NCBI GenBank assembly: GCA_910575665.1 | Contig: CAJTFB010000002.1 | Span: forward strand, 1-64,000 | From: Eubacteriaceae bacterium | Lineage (GTDB): Bacteria > Bacillota > Clostridia > Lachnospirales > Lachnospiraceae | Direction: 5' to 3' | DNA length: 64,000 nt | Shown: positions 4,100 through 40,504 of the stretch, piece by piece | Position numbering within the stretch: position 1 is the first letter of the stretch | Layout: every line of letters begins with the position of its first letter | Translations under genes and position numbers: made by a program | Notes under the pieces: generated by a model | Database searches by the model: none | What the model was told of the DNA's origin: nothing | The model's input: only the letters and a program-made list of their open reading frames with translations

Positions 4100-5776
4100 A
4101 TGCAGTTAAACGGCTCCCAAATCTTAATAGAATGTTTACTGGAGCAAGGAGTTGACACCATATTCGGGTATCCCGGAGGTGCCATATTAAATGTATATGA
4201 CGAGTTGTATCGTTATCAGGATAAATTGCGCCATGTGCTCACATCCCATGAGCAGGGTGCTTCCCATGCAGCAGACGGTTATGCCAGGGCCACCGGAAAG
4301 GTCGGTGTCTGTATGGCGACCAGCGGTCCGGGGGCGACAAACCTTGTAACGGGAATCGCTACCGCCTATATGGATTCGGTTCCGATGGTGGCGATCACCT
4401 GTAATGTTACCCTCCCTCTTCTGGGAAAAGATAGTTTTCAGGAGGTGGATATCGCCGGTGTGACGATGCCAGTCACGAAACACAGTTTTATCGTAAAAGA
4501 TATTAATGACCTTGCCGGCGTGGTGAGACGTGCCTTCAAGATCGCCCAAAGCGGCAGACCGGGACCGGTTCTTGTGGACATCCCAAAGGATGTGACAGCG
4601 GCTGTCACAGAATTTACACCGCAGACGCCGGAGATCATTCAGAGAAAGACAGATACTATCAAAGAGAGCGATATCGAAGCGGTGGTTCAGGCGATCCGCA
4701 GCTCGGAAAAACCGATGATCTTTGTGGGCGGCGGAAATATCTTATCCGGAGACAGCGCAGAACTGAAAGAGTTTGTTAAAAAAGTGGATGCACCGGTTAC
4801 GGATACATTGATGGGAAAAGGTGCTTTTGATGGAACGGAAGAGTACTATACAGGTATGCTGGGCATGCACGGAACAAAAACCGCCAATCTCAGTGTGACG
4901 GAGTGCGACCTTCTGATTGCACTGGGCGTTCGTTTTTCTGATCGCGTGATCGGAAATGCCTGTAAGTTTGCCTACAATGCTAAGATCGTCCACATTGATA
5001 TCGATGCGGCGGAGATCAATAAAAACATTCAGGTGGATTACTCCATCGTAGGAGACCTCAAATCCATTCTGGAGATCTTAAATAAAAAACTGGAAAATCA
5101 GTATCATAAGCCTTGGATTGACAAGGTGCTTGCCAGAAAGGCGGCACTGCCTATGCAGTACCGGGATGACGTGCTGACAGGACCCTACATCATTGAGCGG
5201 ATCAACGAGCTGACAGGCGGAGATGCTATTATTTCTACAGATGTAGGACAGCATCAGATGTGGGCGGCACAGTATTTTAAATATAAAAACCCGCGCACCT
5301 TCCTTACTTCCGGAGGCATGGGAACTATGGGTTATGGACTGGGCGCCTGCATCGGGGCAAAGGTAGGAATGCCGGAGAAGCATGTGTTTAACATCGCCGG
5401 AGACGGTTGTTTCCGTATGAATATGAATGAGCTTGCCACCGCTTCCCGTTATCGTATCCCGATCATCCAGGTGATCTTTGATAACCATGCTCTTGGGATG
5501 GTTCGCCAGTGGCAGACATTGTTCTATGGAAAACGATATTCCAATACAATATTAGAGGATAAGGTGGATTACGTAAAGGTATCCGAGGCGCTGGGAGCGA
5601 AGGCGTACCACATTACCAAGCGCGAAGAGGCAGACGATGTGATCCGGGCAGCGATGGAGTCCGATGAGCCGGTGGTAATCTGTTGTTCTCTGGCGCAGGA
5701 TGACAAGGTGTGGCCGATGGTGGCACCGGGGGCGCCAATCGAGGAAGCTTTTAACGAAGAAGATCTGAAAAAGTAA
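4100..5776 (+). CDS. ilvB: Acetolactate synthase, large (catalytic) subunit
   Basis: Thiamine-diphosphate enzyme condensing pyruvate with pyruvate or 2-ketobutyrate, the committed step of branched-chain amino acid synthesis. The 558 residues cover the N-terminal ThDP-pyrimidine domain (IFGYPGGAILNVYDEL, catalytic E in SHEQGASHAADGYA), the central FAD-binding type domain, and the C-terminal ThDP-pyrophosphate domain (GDGCFRMNMNELATASRY, with the GDG...N motif). The length suits a biosynthetic AHAS rather than the shorter catabolic AlsS only weakly; neighbours leuB and ilvD decide the assignment. No ilvN/ilvH regulatory subunit or ilvC follows, so these must be encoded elsewhere or be absent. 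Confidence 0.93.
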   Translation: MQLNGSQILIECLLEQGVDTIFGYPGGAILNVYDELYRYQDKLRHVLTSHEQGASHAADGYARATGKVGVCMATSGPGATNLVTGIATAYMDSVPMVAITCNVTLPLLGKDSFQEVDIAGVTMPVTKHSFIVKDINDLAGVVRRAFKIAQSGRPGPVLVDIPKDVTAAVTEFTPQTPEIIQRKTDTIKESDIEAVVQAIRSSEKPMIFVGGGNILSGDSAELKEFVKKVDAPVTDTLMGKGAFDGTEEYYTGMLGMHGTKTANLSVTECDLLIALGVRFSDRVIGNACKFAYNAKIVHIDIDAAEINKNIQVDYSIVGDLKSILEILNKKLENQYHKPWIDKVLARKAALPMQYRDDVLTGPYIIERINELTGGDAIISTDVGQHQMWAAQYFKYKNPRTFLTSGGMGTMGYGLGACIGAKVGMPEKHVFNIAGDGCFRMNMNELATASRYRIPIIQVIFDNHALGMVRQWQTLFYGKRYSNTILEDKVDYVKVSEALGAKAYHITKREEADDVIRAAMESDEPVVICCSLAQDDKVWPMVAPGAPIEEAFNEEDLKK

Positions 5777-5846: not shown

Positions 5847-6938
5847 GTGGCTAGAGTGTACAATTTTTCAGCAGGACCAGCTGTTTTACCGGAAGAGGTA
5901 TTAAAGGAAGCAGCAGATGAGATGATGGATTACAAGGGAACCGGAATGTCGGTGATGGAGATGAGCCATCGTTCCAAAGCCTACGATGAGATCATCAAGA
6001 CCGCAGAGGCAGATCTTCGTGAGCTGATGAATATTCCTGACAATTACAAGGTGCTGTTTCTGCAGGGAGGAGCATCCCAGCAGTTCGCGATGATTCCGAT
6101 GAATCTGATGAAAAACGGTGTGGCTGATTATATCGTTACTGGACAGTGGGCAAAGAAAGCATACCAGGAGGCATGCAAATACGGAAAGGCGAATAAGATC
6201 GCTTCTTCTGAGGATGAGACATTTTCCTATATTCCGGACTGCTCCGACCTTCCGATCAGTGAAGATGCAGACTATGTGTACATCTGCGAGAACAATACCA
6301 TTTATGGAACCAAATATAAAACACTTCCCAATACAAAGGGAAAGACGCTGGTAGCAGACGTTTCTTCCTGCTTTTTATCCGAGCCAGTGGATGTAGAGAA
6401 GTACGGTGTGATCTACGGCGGTGTTCAGAAGAACATCGGTCCGGCGGGGGTTGTGATCGTTATTATCCGTGAGGACCTGATTCCTGAGACCGTGGATGAA
6501 AAAGTTCCTACCATGCTTCAGTATAAGACGCATTCCGACGCCCAGAGCCTTTACAATACACCGCCGGCATATGGTATCTATATATGCGGCAAAGTATTCA
6601 AATGGATCAAGAAGATGGGCGGCCTTGCTGTGATGAAGGAGAAAAATGAAGAGAAGGCAAAGATTCTCTATGATTTCCTGGATTCCAGTGAGATGTTCAA
6701 GGGTACGGTGCGCAAAGAAGACCGTTCTCTGATGAATGTGCCTTTTGTGACAGGAAATGAGGAGCTGGATGCCAAATTTGTCAAAGAGGCAAAGGAGGCG
6801 GGCTTTGAGAACCTGAAAGGACACCGTACGGTAGGCGGTATGCGCGCAAGCATTTACAATGCTATGCCGAAGGAAGGTGTGGAGAAGCTGGTTGAATTTA
6901 TGAAGAAATTTGAAGAAGCGGAAGCAACGCAGAAATGA
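5847..6938 (+). CDS. serC: Phosphoserine aminotransferase
   Basis: PLP enzyme transferring an amino group from glutamate to 3-phosphohydroxypyruvate in serine synthesis. The 363-residue product starts with the family signature YNFSAGPAVLPEEVL and has FLQGGASQQFAMIPMNL, the PLP-lysine segment GGVQKNIGPAG, and the C-terminal GHRTVGGMRASIYNA. The start is GTG 5847 after a strong AAGGAGG site. It is adjacent to serA, which supplies its substrate. No serB-type phosphatase is adjacent. Confidence 0.97.
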   Translation: MARVYNFSAGPAVLPEEVLKEAADEMMDYKGTGMSVMEMSHRSKAYDEIIKTAEADLRELMNIPDNYKVLFLQGGASQQFAMIPMNLMKNGVADYIVTGQWAKKAYQEACKYGKANKIASSEDETFSYIPDCSDLPISEDADYVYICENNTIYGTKYKTLPNTKGKTLVADVSSCFLSEPVDVEKYGVIYGGVQKNIGPAGVVIVIIREDLIPETVDEKVPTMLQYKTHSDAQSLYNTPPAYGIYICGKVFKWIKKMGGLAVMKEKNEEKAKILYDFLDSSEMFKGTVRKEDRSLMNVPFVTGNEELDAKFVKEAKEAGFENLKGHRTVGGMRASIYNAMPKEGVEKLVEFMKKFEEAEATQK

Positions 6939-6946
6939 GGGAAAGT

Positions 6947-8113
6947 ATGAGTATAAAAGTGAACTGCCTGAATCCGATCGCGGCATGCGGTCTGGATCTT
7001 CTGGATGATAAATATGAGATTGTAGAGGATGTAAATGCAGCAGAGGCTGTGCTGGTGAGAAGTGCCTCCATGCACGATATGGAGTTGTCGGATCACCTGA
7101 TCGCTGTGGCGAGAGCCGGTGCCGGCGTCAACAATATTCCGCTGGAGGAGTGTGCGGAAAAGGGAATCGTCGTATTCAATACACCGGGAGCTAATGCCAA
7201 TGGTGTAAAAGAGCTGGTTGTAGCAGCGATGATCCTTGCTTCCCGCGATATCGTCGGTGGTATCGAGTGGGTGAAAGACAATAAAGAGGATGGAGATATC
7301 GCCAAGGCAGCGGAAAAGGCCAAGAAGGCATTTGCCGGAACCGAGATCTCCGGTAAAAAGCTTGGTATTATCGGCCTAGGAGCCATCGGTGTGCTGGTGG
7401 CAAATGCGGCAAACCGTCTTGGAATGGAAGTATATGGATGCGACCCATATCTTTCCGTGGATAATGCGCTGAATATGTCCAGGGACATCACTCTTGTGAA
7501 AACCTATGAGGAGATCTACAGCGAGTGTGATTTTATCACCGTTCACGTGCCTCTTCTGGATTCCACCAAGGGAATGTTTGATAAAGAAGCTTTCGACAAA
7601 ATGAAGGACGGCGTGGTATTCCTGAACTTCTCCAGAGATACACTGGTCAATGAACCGGATATGAAGGCGGCATTGGAAAGCGGCAAAGTGAAAAAATACG
7701 TGGTGGATTTCCCAAATCCGACGACAGCAGCTCTTCCTAACACCATTGTTACACCACATCTGGGAGCTTCTACACAGGAATCCGAGGATAACTGTGCTAA
7801 AATGGCAGTAAAACAGATCCGGGAGTTTATGGAGAATGGTAACATTGTGAATTCTGTCAATTATCCCACATGTGATGCCGGAGTTTGTACCACAGAGGGA
7901 CGTATCGCCGTGGCGCATAAAAATGTCCACTCCATGCTTTCCAAATTTACCAATGTATTTGCCAAGGATGGAATCAATATTGAAAACATGGTCAATAAGA
8001 GCCGGGGTGACTTCGCCTATACGATCTTCGATATCTGCAGTGAGGCGACGGGAGCGATCGTGAAGGATCTGGAAGCGATCGATGGTGTGATCAAGGTAAG
8101 AATCATTAAGTGA
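6947..8113 (+). CDS. serA: D-3-phosphoglycerate dehydrogenase with C-terminal ACT-like domain
   Basis: First step of serine synthesis, oxidising 3-phosphoglycerate with NAD. The 388 residues show substrate-domain motif RAGAGVNNIP, Rossmann motif LGIIGLGAIGVLVAN, the catalytic region TVHVPLLDSTKGMF and HLGASTQESEDNCA (catalytic His), then an ACT-like domain over about the last 70 residues (HKNVHSMLSKFTNVF onward), which in the family senses serine. ATG 6947 is chosen over ATG 6935, which overlaps the serC stop, because GAGGGAAAG lies at good distance. It is translationally close-coupled to serC. Confidence 0.95.
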   Translation: MSIKVNCLNPIAACGLDLLDDKYEIVEDVNAAEAVLVRSASMHDMELSDHLIAVARAGAGVNNIPLEECAEKGIVVFNTPGANANGVKELVVAAMILASRDIVGGIEWVKDNKEDGDIAKAAEKAKKAFAGTEISGKKLGIIGLGAIGVLVANAANRLGMEVYGCDPYLSVDNALNMSRDITLVKTYEEIYSECDFITVHVPLLDSTKGMFDKEAFDKMKDGVVFLNFSRDTLVNEPDMKAALESGKVKKYVVDFPNPTTAALPNTIVTPHLGASTQESEDNCAKMAVKQIREFMENGNIVNSVNYPTCDAGVCTTEGRIAVAHKNVHSMLSKFTNVFAKDGINIENMVNKSRGDFAYTIFDICSEATGAIVKDLEAIDGVIKVRIIK

Positions 8114-25258: not shown

Positions 25259-26286
25259 GTGGGTTGGAAAACATCAGAATCAATCCATATTTTTTCCAAT
25301 ACAGCTTATACAGCAGCCGGAGGTGAAATTCAGTCTGAAAATATGGTCAGTGCTGGGGAAGAAGAGCTTCGGATGATGGTGTGGCTACCTGGGACTGTAT
25401 TTGGTTTGGAAACTACTGGCAGGAGTACACGAACGGGGACGGAAAAGCCGACAAAGAGGATGACAAAACCCCCATCAAGTGGCGGGTGCTATCAGTCAAA
25501 GGTGATGATGTCTTCTTAATGGCTGACAAGAATCTGGACTGCCAGAAATATAACGATTCAAAGTCAGAAGTCACTTGGCAGACTTGTACAATGCGTAGCT
25601 GGTTGAATGGTTATGGAGCAGGATTGAATCAGGAAGGAAAAGATTTTAGTGGAAATAGTTTTCTGAACAATGCTTTTACAACATTGGAGCAACAGGGAAT
25701 AAAGACGACGACTGTAGTAAACAATGACAACTTGGAGTATAGTACTGAGGCAGGAAACGATACCTACGATCAAGTGTATTTGCTCTCTATTGATGAGGTG
25801 ACAGATGCGGCATATGGGTTTTCAACATATTGGAGCACTTCAAACAAAAGAAAAGCAGAAAATACAATGTATGTGACTGGGGGAGGCCAGATTCAAGTTG
25901 GTCCCATGATTGGAAGTGAAAGTATGTGGTGGCTTCGGTCACCAGGTGGTGTTAATGATTGTGCTTCTCTCATGTTTAGTGAGGGGACTGTTAATACATA
26001 CGGTTACGATGTTGATAATGATGTAGATGGTCTTGCTGTCCGTCCGGCTTTACATTTAAATTTATCATCTGATTCGGGATGGTCATACGCTGGTACCGTA
26101 ACCTCAGATGGAAGGATAAAAGAGCATGAATTGCCAAAACCTACAGTTTCTCCATCACCGACAGAACCGGGGAAGACAGCCGGACCAGACAGCACAGAAA
26201 AACCATTGGTCACTCCTGCAGTTTCAGAGATGCCATCTACACCGGAAAGTACACAAAAACCAAAGGAGACCACCATACTTAATTAA
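25259..26286 (+). pseudogene. Decayed DUF6273 surface protein gene (5' part lost)
   Basis: Paralogue of the intact gene at 37103-39268. In one frame, 25283-25360 encodes the end of a first DUF6273 domain (NTAYTAAGGEI, compare NTAYTAVGGEI in the intact gene). The frame shifts, and from about 25381 a full second domain is readable: TWDCIWFGNYWQE, WRVLSVKGDDVFLMADKNLD, TCTMRSWLNGYGA, WWLRSPG, then VRPALHLNLSS, followed by a Pro/Ser/Thr-rich linker (PKPTVSPSPTEPGKTAG). The signal peptide, most of domain 1 and the C-terminal FN3-like domain are missing. GTG 25381 could still start a cytoplasmic fragment. Confidence 0.75.
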
Positions 26287-26301: not shown

Positions 26302-26430
26302 TATACAGACCTGGAGGAACTGGAGGCGGCGGGTCTGGAAAACGCCGTCATGTCGTTGGAAGAGATCCGTGAGCTGATCGGGGAGCCATTGGAGATCATA
26401 CGGGAAGCAGTGTCCTGGCTTGATAATTAG
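26302..26430 (+). pseudogene. Internal-deletion remnant of an Rpn/PD-(D/E)XK nuclease gene
   Basis: A 42-residue stretch reading YTDLEELEAAGLENAVMS and then EEIRELIGEPLEIIREAV. These match residues about 48-63 and about 283-301 of the intact Rpn protein at 39599-40504 (YTDPEELEAAGLENAV and EEISELTGEPVETIRKAV). About 220 codons are deleted in frame; the junction lies at a TGTC shared by both sides, consistent with microhomology-mediated loss. As at the intact locus, it directly follows a DUF6273 gene. Confidence 0.8.
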
Positions 26431-37042: not shown

Positions 37043-37102
37043 AGAATAACTTATATAGGCTAAAATATGCTTATACAGTTAAAAAATAAGGAGAGTGATA
37101 TT

Positions 37103-39268
37103 GTGAACAAAAGCAAACAAAAAAATTTTTTTTTTCGGAAGCAGGCAGCCCTGCTTCTGATAGGAGCCCTGATGGCAGGTCTCCTTCCCATGGGAACAGG
37201 GATGAAAAGCTGGGCAACGGAGCAACCCACACTTCGGAATCCCCGGATTCTAAAGACTACCCAGGAAGTGGCGCCGGGATCAGTTAGGAAAGAACTGAAA
37301 AATCCAACCACGGAAAACGGTATCACCACTTGGGACTGTATCTGGTTCGGGAACTACTGGCAGGAGGACATCAACGGAGATGGAAAAGCCGACAAGAACG
37401 ACGAGAAAACTCCCATTAAGTGGCGTGTGTTGTCAGTGGAGGGCGACGACGTATTTCTGTTGGCGGATAAGAACCTGGATGTGCAGAGGTACAATGATAC
37501 AGATACAGACGTCACCTGGGAGACTTGTACGATGCGCAGCTGGTTGAACGGCTATGGGGCGGAAATAAACAAGGATGGGAAGGACTATAGTAATAATAAC
37601 TTCCTTAATAATGCATTTTCGCTAGATGAGCAGTCAGCAATCAAGCCGACAAATGTTGTGAATAACGACAATCCGGAATATGGGACAGAAGGTGGAAATG
37701 ATACGTCAGACAAGGTGTATTTACTGTCTATCGACGAGGTGACAAATCTGGAGTATGGGTTTGACTCTTCTGAAGACTATACAAACATAAGGCAGGCAGT
37801 AAATACAGCCTATACAGCGGTCGGAGGAGAGATCGGGAATAGTGGTATGTCCTGGTTTGGAAGCACTGAAGGACGCTGGTGGCTCCGGTCGCCGGGTGAC
37901 TATAGTAATAACGCTTCCGTTGTGTATGGCGATGGAGGCATCGCTTCGTCTGGCGATTATGTCTACGACAGTTATGACGGTGTCCGTCCGGCTTTGCATT
38001 TAAATTTATCATCTATTCCAAATTGGTCATATGCTGGTACCGTTCCCTCTGATGACGTGTCTGAATGGGACTGTATCTGGTTTGGGAACTACTGGCAGGA
38101 GGACACCAACGGGGATGGCAAAGCCGACAAGAACGACGAGAAAACTCCCATTAAGTGGCGTGTGTTGTCAGTGGAGGGCGACGACGTATTTCTGTTGGCG
38201 GATAAGAACCTGGATGTGCAGAGGTACAATGATACAGATACAGACGTCACCTGGGAGACCTGTACGATGCGCAGCTGGCTGAATGGTTATAGGGCGGAGA
38301 TGAACAAGGATGGGAAGGACTATAGTAATAATAACTTCCTTAATAATGCATTTTCGCTAGATGAGCAGTCAGCAATCAAGCCGACAAATGTTGTGAATAA
38401 CGACAATCCGGAATATGGGACAGAAGGTGGAAATGATACGTCAGACAAGGTGTATTTACTGTCTATCGACGAGGTGACAAATCTGGAGTATGGGTTTGAC
38501 TCTTCTAGAGACTACTATGCGGAAAACAGAACAGCCTTGAATACCATTTTTGTGAAATGGCGGGGAGCATGGACGAGCCAATCTGAGGAGTATGAGGGGA
38601 ACGGCTATTGGTGGCTCCGGTCGCCGGGCTACAATAGTAATTTAGCTTCCAGCGTGGATTTTTCTGGTCTTGACGATATGTTTGGCCGCAGTGTTGACGA
38701 CTTTCTTATTGTCGTCCGTCCGGCTTTGCATTTGAATCTATCATCTGCTTCAGGCTGTCAATATGCTGGTATTGTGAACTCGGATGGCAAAGTGGAAGAG
38801 ATTGAGGCTCCAGCACCGTCAGTCATTCCTTCACCGATAGAACCAGGAAACACGCAGAAACCGCAGGAGACCATTGTACCAGAAACATCGTCCCAGCCGG
38901 GCGATCCTTCTGTGGTCCCATCTACACAGCAGCCAGATCCCTCTGCGACTCCGGATCCAGGCATTACATCTGGTTCGGGAAAAGCCGCGGTCGGAAAAGT
39001 ATTGGCTTTAAAACTCAAACAGAAGAAGGGCATCGTGACGGCTTCCTGGAAAAAGACCATTGGAGTAAAAGGCTATCAGATCTGTTATAGCACCTCGAAG
39101 AAGTGGAAGAACAAAAAACAGAAGCTGATCAAAAAAAATAAAGCAGTAATCAAGAATCTGAAAAAGAAAAAGACTTATTACTTCCGTGTTCGGGCTTATC
39201 GTCTGGAAGGGACAAAGAAAGTCTACGGGGCATGGAGCGGTGTGAAAAAGATCAAGATTAAGAAGTAA
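37103..39268 (+). CDS. Exported cell-surface protein with two DUF6273 domains and C-terminal FN3-like domain
   Basis: About 721 residues from GTG 37103 (AAGGAGAGTG before it). Signal peptide: basic start, then AALLLIGALMAGLLPMG. Two DUF6273 domains (about residues 76-315 and 320-560) each begin WDCIWFGNYWQED, contain WRVLSVEGDDVFLLADKNLD and TCTMRSWLNGY, and end WWLRSPG, a 28-codon variable stretch and VRPALHLNLSS, a C-lectin/FGE-like layout. A Pro/Ser/Thr-rich linker follows, then a Lys-rich FN3-like domain (GVKGYQICYSTSKKWKNKKQ, YYFRVRAYRLEGTKKVYGAW). There is no LPXTG motif; the basic C-terminus may bind the wall. Its role is unknown, with an adhesin or ligand-binding protein most likely. 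Codons near the start include an A7T10 run. Confidence 0.85.
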   Translation: MNKSKQKNFFFRKQAALLLIGALMAGLLPMGTGMKSWATEQPTLRNPRILKTTQEVAPGSVRKELKNPTTENGITTWDCIWFGNYWQEDINGDGKADKNDEKTPIKWRVLSVEGDDVFLLADKNLDVQRYNDTDTDVTWETCTMRSWLNGYGAEINKDGKDYSNNNFLNNAFSLDEQSAIKPTNVVNNDNPEYGTEGGNDTSDKVYLLSIDEVTNLEYGFDSSEDYTNIRQAVNTAYTAVGGEIGNSGMSWFGSTEGRWWLRSPGDYSNNASVVYGDGGIASSGDYVYDSYDGVRPALHLNLSSIPNWSYAGTVPSDDVSEWDCIWFGNYWQEDTNGDGKADKNDEKTPIKWRVLSVEGDDVFLLADKNLDVQRYNDTDTDVTWETCTMRSWLNGYRAEMNKDGKDYSNNNFLNNAFSLDEQSAIKPTNVVNNDNPEYGTEGGNDTSDKVYLLSIDEVTNLEYGFDSSRDYYAENRTALNTIFVKWRGAWTSQSEEYEGNGYWWLRSPGYNSNLASSVDFSGLDDMFGRSVDDFLIVVRPALHLNLSSASGCQYAGIVNSDGKVEEIEAPAPSVIPSPIEPGNTQKPQETIVPETSSQPGDPSVVPSTQQPDPSATPDPGITSGSGKAAVGKVLALKLKQKKGIVTASWKKTIGVKGYQICYSTSKKWKNKKQKLIKKNKAVIKNLKKKKTYYFRVRAYRLEGTKKVYGAWSGVKKIKIKK
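37119..37135 (+). repeat. A7T10 homopolymer tract at the start of the surface protein gene
   Basis: Seven A (37119-37125) directly followed by ten T (37126-37135), inside codons 6-11 of the DUF6273 gene, just before the hydrophobic part of the signal peptide. Runs of this length are prone to slipped-strand mispairing; gain or loss of one base would shift the frame and stop translation early. Confidence 0.8.
37331..37771 (+). repeat. Long direct repeat within the surface protein gene, copy 1
   Basis: This 441-bp stretch recurs at 38066-38506 (offset 735) with only about a dozen base differences by eye, most of them silent; the last about 220 bases look identical. It encodes the conserved first half of each DUF6273 domain. 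Identity stops abruptly after GACTCTTCT. Confidence 0.9.
38066..38506 (+). repeat. Long direct repeat within the surface protein gene, copy 2
   Basis: Partner of 37331-37771. Such high identity between two in-gene copies points to recent duplication or ongoing gene conversion, and would allow RecA-dependent loss of one domain. Confidence 0.9.
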
Positions 39269-39426: not shown

Positions 39427-39455
39427 TTGACAAAATCATACTTGTATGTTATGGT
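39427..39455 (+). promoter_or_regulatory. Promoter of the Rpn gene
   Basis: TTGACA (39427-39432) and TATGGT (39450-39455) with a 17-base spacer. About 140 bases of leader follow before the start codon and include AGGAAGCAGCCCTCTGCGGG, similar to 26472-26500 near the decayed copy. Confidence 0.5.
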
Positions 39456-39598
39456 ATTAAAAAGCATTACCATTCTTTCATTATCTGAAAATTCTTTCAT
39501 TCTCAAAGAACGTCAATGCTTGATTCCAGAAAATCAGAAAAAAGCAGGGAGGTTGTTTGAAAATGAGAGGAAGCAGCCCTCTGCGGGACGGAGGGTAA

Positions 39599-40504
39599 AT
39601 GAAAAAAAGAGAAGAAATACTGGCAGATCCGATTCCGGGAACGCTAGCACAAAGAAACTACAAAGACACTGTATTCCGGATGCTGTACCGGGACAAGTCA
39701 GAACTTCTGGAACTATACAACGCAGTAAACGACACGCAGTATACAGACCCGGAAGAGCTGGAAGCAGCGGGACTGGAAAATGCCGTCTATATGTCAATGA
39801 AAAACGACGTATCCTGTGTGGTGGACCTGCGGCTGAACCTGTACGAACACCAGTCCACGGTAAATCCGAACATGCCGCTGCGCGATCTGTTCTACATAGC
39901 AAAACTGTATGAAAAAATGATTCAGAAAGAAAAAAGAGACCTGTATTCTGGAAAAAGGATCCAGATTCCGTCACCCCGTTTTGTTGTATTTTACAACGGG
40001 TCAGAGGAACAGCCGGAGAAGAGGATCTTGCGCCTGTCGGAATCCTTTTACCGGCAGACAGAAGAAGCCGGCCTTGAACTGACAGTACTCCAGTTGAACA
40101 TCAATTCAGGAAATAATGAAGAGCTATTAGGAAAATGCCGTTCCCTGCATGATTACATGAAGTACGTGGAGCGTGTCCGGAGCTATAGCCGGGAGATGGA
40201 TTTTCAGGAAGCGGTGGAGAGGGCAGTGTCAGAATGTATTGAGGAAGGAATTCTGGAGGAATTCTTAAGAGCCAACCGGGCGGAGGTGATCCAGATGAGT
40301 ATATTTGAATATGATGAAGAACTGCATATGGCGACGGTGAGGGAAGAAGGCAGAGAAGAGGGCTGGAATGAAGGCAGGGAGGAAGGAGTTGTCTTGGAAC
40401 GTAACAGGCTGCTGGCCGGCATGCTGGAGAGAGGCCTGTCGCCAGAAGAGATTAGTGAATTGACTGGGGAGCCGGTGGAGACCATACGGAAAGCAGTACA
40501 CTAG
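39599..40504 (+). CDS. Rpn-family PD-(D/E)XK nuclease / putative transposase
   Basis: A 301-residue protein. The N-terminal half has Rpn/transposase_31-like features: YKDTVFRMLYRDKSELLELY, NAVYMSMKNDVSCVVDLRLN and LYEHQSTVNPNMPLR, where Asp and Glu-x-Gln are the likely catalytic D and E-x-Q/K of a PD-(D/E)XK fold, followed by RFVVFYNG. The C-terminal part has EEGREEGWNEGREEG repeats and a small helical module SPEEISELTGEPVETIRKAV. Rpn proteins promote RecA-independent recombination in E. coli; many multi-copy relatives are uncharacterised. A strong GGAGGG site precedes ATG 39599. Confidence 0.85.
   Translation: MKKREEILADPIPGTLAQRNYKDTVFRMLYRDKSELLELYNAVNDTQYTDPEELEAAGLENAVYMSMKNDVSCVVDLRLNLYEHQSTVNPNMPLRDLFYIAKLYEKMIQKEKRDLYSGKRIQIPSPRFVVFYNGSEEQPEKRILRLSESFYRQTEEAGLELTVLQLNINSGNNEELLGKCRSLHDYMKYVERVRSYSREMDFQEAVERAVSECIEEGILEEFLRANRAEVIQMSIFEYDEELHMATVREEGREEGWNEGREEGVVLERNRLLAGMLERGLSPEEISELTGEPVETIRKAVH

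Follow-up and report, generated by a model that had tools for sequence, protein, structure and literature searches.

We propose that the hypervariable tips of a two-headed DUF6273 protein from the Lachnospiraceae are, very probably, the orphaned and frozen target of a diversity-generating retroelement (DGR), a pair of variable repeats that a DGR wrote before its machinery was lost from the lineage. Both tips bear the imprint of template adenines, genus mates carry DGRs with matching templates, and no DGR parts were found in the assembly to which the gene belongs. Also, a related genome (G026) retains a partly deleted DGR at a site homologous to a scar in this one.

The biochemistry of DGR copying is established. 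In the history proposed here, a reverse transcriptase (RT) working with Avd would have made a copy of a template repeat with misincorporation at the adenines, and this cDNA would have taken the place of the tip segment in DUF6273 domains both close by and distant, so that AAY codons became NNY codons with their third bases unchanged. Template, RT, and Avd would then have been lost; a site that carries a DGR in a close relative is here reduced to a target tail. What would remain is a secreted, two-headed, C-type-lectin-like protein whose tips are fixed and drift as any other sequence does.

The target gene and the codons of its tips

The window analyzed here is a stretch of 64,000 bases, bases 1 to 64000 of contig C2, from a draft assembly of 4.19 Mb in 163 contigs (97.98% complete), which is labelled G000 in comparisons with genus mates (handles: G, genome; C, contig; L, locus). 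A Pfam profile search matched the target protein to PF19789 (DUF6273) in two stretches (1.7e-55), while the fn3 match in its tail, at 24.6 bits, lies slightly below the cut-off of 25. The N terminus was judged by eye to be signal-peptide-like. The open reading frame (ORF) as listed begins with an ATG at 37067; the start preferred here is a downstream GTG at 37103 that has GGAG upstream of it. Relatives in named records come mostly from Lachnospiraceae (uncultured Roseburia, Lachnoclostridium, Lachnospiraceae bacterium, and Eubacterium sp.). By its PF19789 match the protein belongs to a known DGR target family, as evidenced by the available text of two reports on DUF6273 targets (PMC11792537, PMC10743442). 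Published models would make the tip an exposed loop on a C-type lectin fold, and receptor or glycan binding by the tips would follow from the same models; the tips presumably bind a surface ligand.

Table 1. Positions of the target gene, its repeats, and the features compared with them
Feature	Location	Strand	Remarks
Truncated DUF6273 paralogue	25381..26286	+	Variable-repeat-like tip 25948-26037; weaker imprint
Rpn-like fragment behind paralogue	26351..26418	+	85% identity to L097 Rpn-like gene
Target gene, probably an orphaned DGR target	37103..39268	+	~721 aa; two DUF6273 domains, Pro/Ser/Thr-rich linker, fn3-like C-terminal tail
DUF6273 domain 1	37328..38008	+	First of the two DUF6273 domains
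Variable repeat 1	37877..37990	+	WWLRSPG core 37877-37897, tip 37898-37981, VRP
DUF6273 domain 2	38066..38740	+	DNA almost the same as domain 1 in the 5' part, diverged in the 3' part
Variable repeat 2	38609..38722	+	Core 38609-38629, tip 38630-38713, VRP
Rpn-like gene (recombination-promoting nuclease/putative transposase)	39599..40504	+	Overlapping ORF 39427-39912
DGR of G016 (L100)	Avd 5337-5747; template from 5786; RT ORF 6038-7165; target from 7114		In a row; Avd and RVT_1 profiles, template-variable comparison
Large DUF6273 protein with nearly fixed tip	L201 (G000:C87:1-8944), L160, L155, L157, L103		Five genomes; non-variable family branch

An earlier note, made from the sequence of the window alone, had described these tips as equal-length stretches of almost pure NNY codons, and a recount agrees with its figures. 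Each tip has 28 codons between WWLRSPG and VRPALHLNL, of which 25 are NNY. Between tips, 7 codons are identical and 19 differ at the first or second base, 12 of these with the same third base. The paralogue tip is likewise NNY-rich (25/30 codons). Agreement at 12 of 19 third bases is by itself unimpressive, because about half would be expected (our estimate) if C or T were drawn at random.

The same note had set diverged tips against a nearly identical scaffold, which holds for the first 420 aligned bases (11 mismatches) but not farther on: divergence is strong from about position 37772, already some 100 bases ahead of the tip, as the note itself cautioned, and it continues behind VRPALHLNL. 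Something beyond tip writing must therefore contribute, which weighs against our reading as a full account of the pattern. Because the 5' parts of the domains are nearly identical, the 3' parts diverge from about that position, and the pre-tip part of each domain resembles, in alignment, that of the corresponding domain of the target in a relative (G022, L052), we conclude that conversion or recent duplication of the scaffold, besides tip writing, shaped this contrast.

Ordinary positive selection or drift on a ligand loop rich in Asp, Asn, Tyr, and Ser, with no DGR at any time and NNY codons as a by-product of the amino acids, is disfavored and, in our judgment, very improbable. This explanation draws on the unimpressive third-base agreement between tips and on the caveat, also raised in the earlier note, that such residues are NNY-coded anyway. 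The caveat is sound as far as it goes: with the same amino acids assumed and codon usage taken from 19 window ORFs (11,458 codons, 48.6% NNY), 20.8 of 28 NNY codons are expected in the tip of domain 1 (P=0.019) and 19.5 of 28 in that of domain 2 (P=0.0017). Nevertheless, an excess remains within degenerate codons, where the pooled tips have 27/32 NNY codons against 17.3 expected (P=8.4e-5). The NNY excess is thus greater than amino-acid choice provides, although it is modest for domain 1 alone.

Templates in genus mates and the imprint of their adenines

Of the 39 genomes of the genus, 37 have DUF6273 matches (E 0.001 or better) and 17 have RVT_1 matches, the latter at 35 places. Twenty regions, 18 of them around an RT, were compared with themselves under a template-variable pair filter of 50 bases, 5 mismatches, and 70% of these at A or T. 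This self-comparison, in which the window played no part, returned A-biased pairs in seven regions (L097, L099, L100, L104, L105, L110, and L111), and an eighth template was recognized by eye in L102. The bias can be nearly complete, with mismatches at A in 15/15 and 12/12 cases in L097 and in 18/19 in L100. DGR loci are present in at least 7 of the 39 genomes (G016, G021, G022, G028, G035, G036, and G037), a lower bound because 18 of the 35 RT places were covered as wide regions and 17 lie outside them. The loci L104, L105, L110, and L111 (G028, G037, and G021) are further DGRs with other RT branches. DGR-type RTs have the motif GxxxSQ, and this motif is found in all nine RTs of the DGR group (the eight loci and a truncated RT in L101); among nine other RTs, L108 has GxxxSQ, six have GxxxSP, and L107 and L112 gave no match to the motif pattern.

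A complete DGR is found in G016, where Avd (bAvd profile, 42.4 bits against a cut-off of 40), template, RT (RVT_1 match, motif GNQTSQ), and target lie in a row and the repeats differ specifically at A. Between the borders that define the window tips, the G016 and G035 templates likewise span 28 codons, and the tip length thus fits DGR templates. Across the G016 contigs C33, C43, and C55 (L100, L172, and L153), the G016 template also matches variable repeats outside its own contig. One of these, on C43, differs from the template at 22/40 adenines and 0/44 other bases, and such a clean repeat on another contig points to writing away from the cassette in this genus. One of the two repeats on C55 appears out of frame or interrupted. 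A single genome can hold as many as 18 DUF6273 matches (G022), many of them in large proteins, and the lectin-like repertoire of the genus far outnumbers the DGRs found. A match to the G016 template in G002:C61 was considered as an orphan template and rejected, as the surrounding sequence holds no such repeat. We also rejected a phage origin of this DGR branch as unlikely: the phage set gave one match, 26% identical, to domain 1, and a scan of viral_contigs returned no relative of the window protein and three relatives of the G016 RT (33-37% identity).

All templates compared with the tips come from relatives (G022, G016, and G035), and none comes from this genome. Against the G022 template, tip 1 differs at 16/27 adenines and 4/33 other bases (P=1.4e-4) and tip 2 at 17/27 and 4/33 (P=4.7e-5). 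Against that of G016, the counts are 24/40 versus 9/44 for tip 1 and 27/40 versus 12/44 for tip 2 (P=2e-4 each). Codon position is not the cause of this bias, since it holds at positions 1 and 2 alone (G022 template: 16/26 adenines versus 1/14 others in tip 1, 16/26 versus 2/14 in tip 2). Moreover, 15 of 20 rewritten AAY codons retain their third base in the comparison with the G022 template (7.8 expected, P=3e-4), and 21 of 30 do so with that of G016 (12.5 expected). A comparison of these two templates gives 0/27 differences at adenines and 7/54 at other positions. Between tips, 8/33 non-adenine positions differ, four private to each tip, and because the other tip keeps the G022-template base in every case, a G022-like template appears to lie central to both. 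On sequence evidence, the tips are historical DGR variable repeats, their differences being concentrated at the adenines of the G022 and G016 templates. The retained third bases also speak against selection or drift alone, as does the retention of 29/33 non-adenine template bases in each tip when a fixed-tip DUF6273 protein of the same genome keeps 13/33.

Some comparisons run against our reading. The G035 template does not separate tip 1 (17/32 A versus 21/52 others, P=0.18) and separates tip 2 weakly (P=0.02). Also, of the five fixed-tip controls, four give P of 0.14 or more against the G022 template and one (G027) gives 0.019, while the lowest of five values against the G016 template is 0.032 (G036). 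In these controls 16-21 of the 33 non-adenine G022-template bases differ, and they are thus not conserved.

In all, 74 tips were found by pattern in the fetched stretches, with some missed (e.g., one with WWLRLPG); 40 have 28 codons, and two of these are templates. With the templates set aside, 38 remain, of which 11 fall below P=0.01 in the comparison with the G022 template; these are the two window tips, five tips from G022, and one each from G014, G016, G027, and G034. No RVT_1 match was found in the assemblies of G014, G027, and G034 (87%, 92%, and 78% complete). Both cassette repeats of G022 are clean, with 0/33 non-adenine differences, as is the G016 cassette repeat (0/44). Four further 28-codon tips in G022 have 3, 6, 6, and 9 of 33, and its fixed-tip one 21; drifted copies thus coexist with clean ones in that genome.

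The paralogue tip differs from the G022 template at 17/27 adenines and 11/33 other bases (P=0.02). In 25300-26286, the sequence ahead of the paralogue looks, by eye, like the portion of an earlier DUF6273 domain that precedes its tip, fused to the domain that follows, as if recombination between domains had removed one tip. An Rpn-like gene or fragment trails DUF6273 target genes at several loci, namely, twice in the window (39427-40504 and 26351-26418) and in L097, L063, L048, and L214; the homologues in L097 (14619-15605), L048, and L063 stand behind DUF6273 genes. The Rpn-like gene of the window matches TIGR01784 with an E value of 4.4e-6, yet at 26.7 bits against a cut-off of 52.1, and it has no Pfam match at 0.001. 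Such a gene might help to copy targets around.

DGR machinery and the homologous site

The earlier note had reported that the window holds no RT or template repeat, and our searches of the window agree (best RT E value 0.14; no template-variable pair). The note had also held that the absence of these parts from complete genomes of the species would refute a DGR, and this draft assembly has yielded neither a DGR-type RT nor a template. Its single PF00078 (RVT_1) match is a 567-aa enzyme of the group II intron type with RVT_N and GIIM domains and the motif QGxxxSP; no DGR-type RT was found in the assembly, where the G022 RT as a query retrieves only that intron type enzyme. No template repeat was found there with tip 1 or the G016 and G022 templates as queries; what they returned was the variable repeats of this genome itself and matches that are short and weak, and with the G022 template the only matches at E 1e-4 are the two window variable repeats. 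The G016 Avd as a query gave no Avd in the assembly (best E 0.29), and not every DGR has one. We therefore rejected an active DGR within the window or the assembly: judged by this assembly, no active DGR targets the tips in their own genome. Of the note's suggestion of a DGR target, the fit to genus mates' templates and the changes at template adenines stand, while RT and template were not found. The group II intron type RT in L001 (G000:C43) is followed by another reading frame that resembles, we presume, a conjugation ATPase, and this intron may sit in a conjugative element.

The draft assembly, in 163 contigs and 98% complete, could have missed a DGR. Under this explanation, a cassette in the unassembled part, or on an element absent from the isolate or bin, would still write the window tips in trans. 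G016 offers a precedent for writing away from a cassette, and remote repeats are not all clean, as the four drifted G022 tips illustrate. We nevertheless consider an active DGR improbable. RT, template, and Avd are all missing from the assembly, and the site at which a DGR would be expected by homology is a scar on a gap-free stretch of the assembly. Moreover, the tips carry 4/33 non-adenine differences each from the G022 template, close to the 14% nucleotide divergence between G000 and G022 at three flanking genes, when the cassette repeats of G022 and G016, one remote G016 repeat, and a fusion in G026 carry none.

That site suggests the history of loss that we prefer. In G022, the DGR sits between a 109-aa ORF and a thymidine-phosphorylase-like gene (this name and that of TmcAL among the flanking genes are ones we presume from the gene sequences). 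Its Avd frame is interrupted, and, relative to G016, its template is without the 3' part and its RT without the N-terminal part. This DGR looks damaged; because it matches a metagenome bin contig, assembly error is possible. In G000, the same neighbors lie on a single uninterrupted contig (C24), where 262 bases of target tail are fused in frame to the 109-aa ORF to give a 185-aa ORF; Rpn-like remnants in two frames are also present, and nothing further lies between the neighbors.

A three-gene tree places G026 as the sister of G022 (support 1.0). At this site G026 retains a fragment of Avd that lies in two frames, and behind it comes the upstream flank of the template, which runs straight into a variable repeat and then a target tail. 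Over 60 bases this flank shows 5 mismatches when aligned with the template flank, against 38 and 33 for the two variable-repeat flanks, and the fused repeat differs from the G022 template at 16/27 adenines and 0/33 other bases. No RT was found at the site, and the G026 assembly has no RVT_1 match. By its sequence, the arrangement appears to be the remnant expected from recombination between template and variable repeat. Elsewhere, the site holds a two-domain target in G027, with no Avd or RT match at E 0.001; in G015, it has Rpn-like pieces and an inserted long ORF, which we take to resemble a transposase, and no target. In G036, G010, and G014, sites of 0.8-1.4 kb were without any of the parts, and in G016 and G029 about 35 bases separate the two flanking genes. 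Relatives thus give a series from a complete DGR (G016, at another site) through a damaged one (G022) and a fusion (G026) to the bare scar of this genome.

We infer that a DGR once stood at the C24 site and that it wrote these very copies, in cis or in trans, before it was lost. Across three flanking genes, G000 and G022 are 86.3% identical, and because the non-adenine divergence of the tips (4/33, or 12%) is close to the 14% divergence of those genes, the numbers, small as they are, would fit an end of rewriting around the split of the two lineages.

The target could instead have been written in another, DGR-bearing lineage and have arrived by horizontal transfer or as a copied target-Rpn unit, with this lineage never having borne a DGR. 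The scar attests only the target tail and Rpn-like remnants, target and Rpn-like gene recur at several loci, and G000 may branch early among its close relatives, where its position has weak support (0.67). Because the scar holds no DGR part, we have shifted our confidence slightly from loss in the lineage toward such an arrival. We still judge arrival from elsewhere rather unlikely: the site carries a DGR in G022, a DGR remnant in G026, and a truncated target in G000, for which one ancestral DGR locus is the simplest explanation.

Beyond this gene, we tentatively suggest a wider pattern, in which a cellular DGR diversifies a secreted lectin-like family, written copies spread (perhaps as target-Rpn units), and the writer is repeatedly discarded, in G026 possibly through recombination between template and variable repeat. 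If so, the fixed repertoire of lectin tips would be a memory of past selection.

Relation to known systems

In the DGR of Bordetella phage BPP-1 (Mtd, Brt, and Avd), the target is a phage tropism protein. That system shares Avd, template, RT, and a C-type lectin target with G016 (the fold of DUF6273 being taken from the literature) and differs in target family, host, and gene order.

The available text of published reports already establishes DUF6273 targets and remote or remnant DGR targets as a kind (PMC7517822, PMC11792537, PMC10743442). DUF6273 is a DGR target in Faecalibacterium prophages and in the gut phages nd4 and nd12 (PMC11792537, PMC10743442), whose domains were modelled as C-type lectins by the authors (PMC10743442), and the accessible part of another report describes an RT gene adjoining a DUF6273 gene in a lytic F. 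prausnitzii phage (PMC13432834). Like the window gene, the phage targets, as far as the available text of the two reports describes them, have DUF6273 with a variable region at the C-terminal end of the domain; they are phage genes with the DGR in the same genome (PMC11792537, PMC10743442). The window target, unlike these, is cellular; its protein starts with a signal-peptide-like segment and carries two variable repeats, and no RT or template was found for it in the assembly. The IgA protease ThomasA has an N-terminal DUF6273 domain, according to the accessible part of its description (PMC12402451), and PDB 9qa6, an IgA protease chain that we take from its name and length to be ThomasA, is the only solved chain matched at E <0.001 by a 17-domain profile. 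Both belong to the same domain family as the window gene, but with one domain, on a protease, and the accessible text on ThomasA makes no mention of DGRs.

A global DGR survey is, by its own statement in the text available, blind to targets that are not adjacent to an RT (PMC8144416). Targets that outlive their DGR are harder still to detect than remote ones, yet templates from relatives make the imprint legible even when no RT is present, and two questions become testable, namely, how DGRs are lost and whether selection keeps frozen variants. Our literature search, which left subscription papers largely outside, found no report of a cellular target that combines two repeats, the absence of an RT, and a decayed locus that can still be traced, and nothing on DGR loss by recombination between template and variable repeat. 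The nearest parallel comes from cyanobacterial DGRs, for which the available text describes remote variable proteins, among them all3226 of PCC 7120, which has remnant template-variable homology and no nearby RT (PMC7517822). As in the window, these are C-lectin genes away from a DGR; unlike in the cyanobacterial case, RT, template, and Avd were found nowhere in the present assembly, and the relatives document decay at a single site in several stages.
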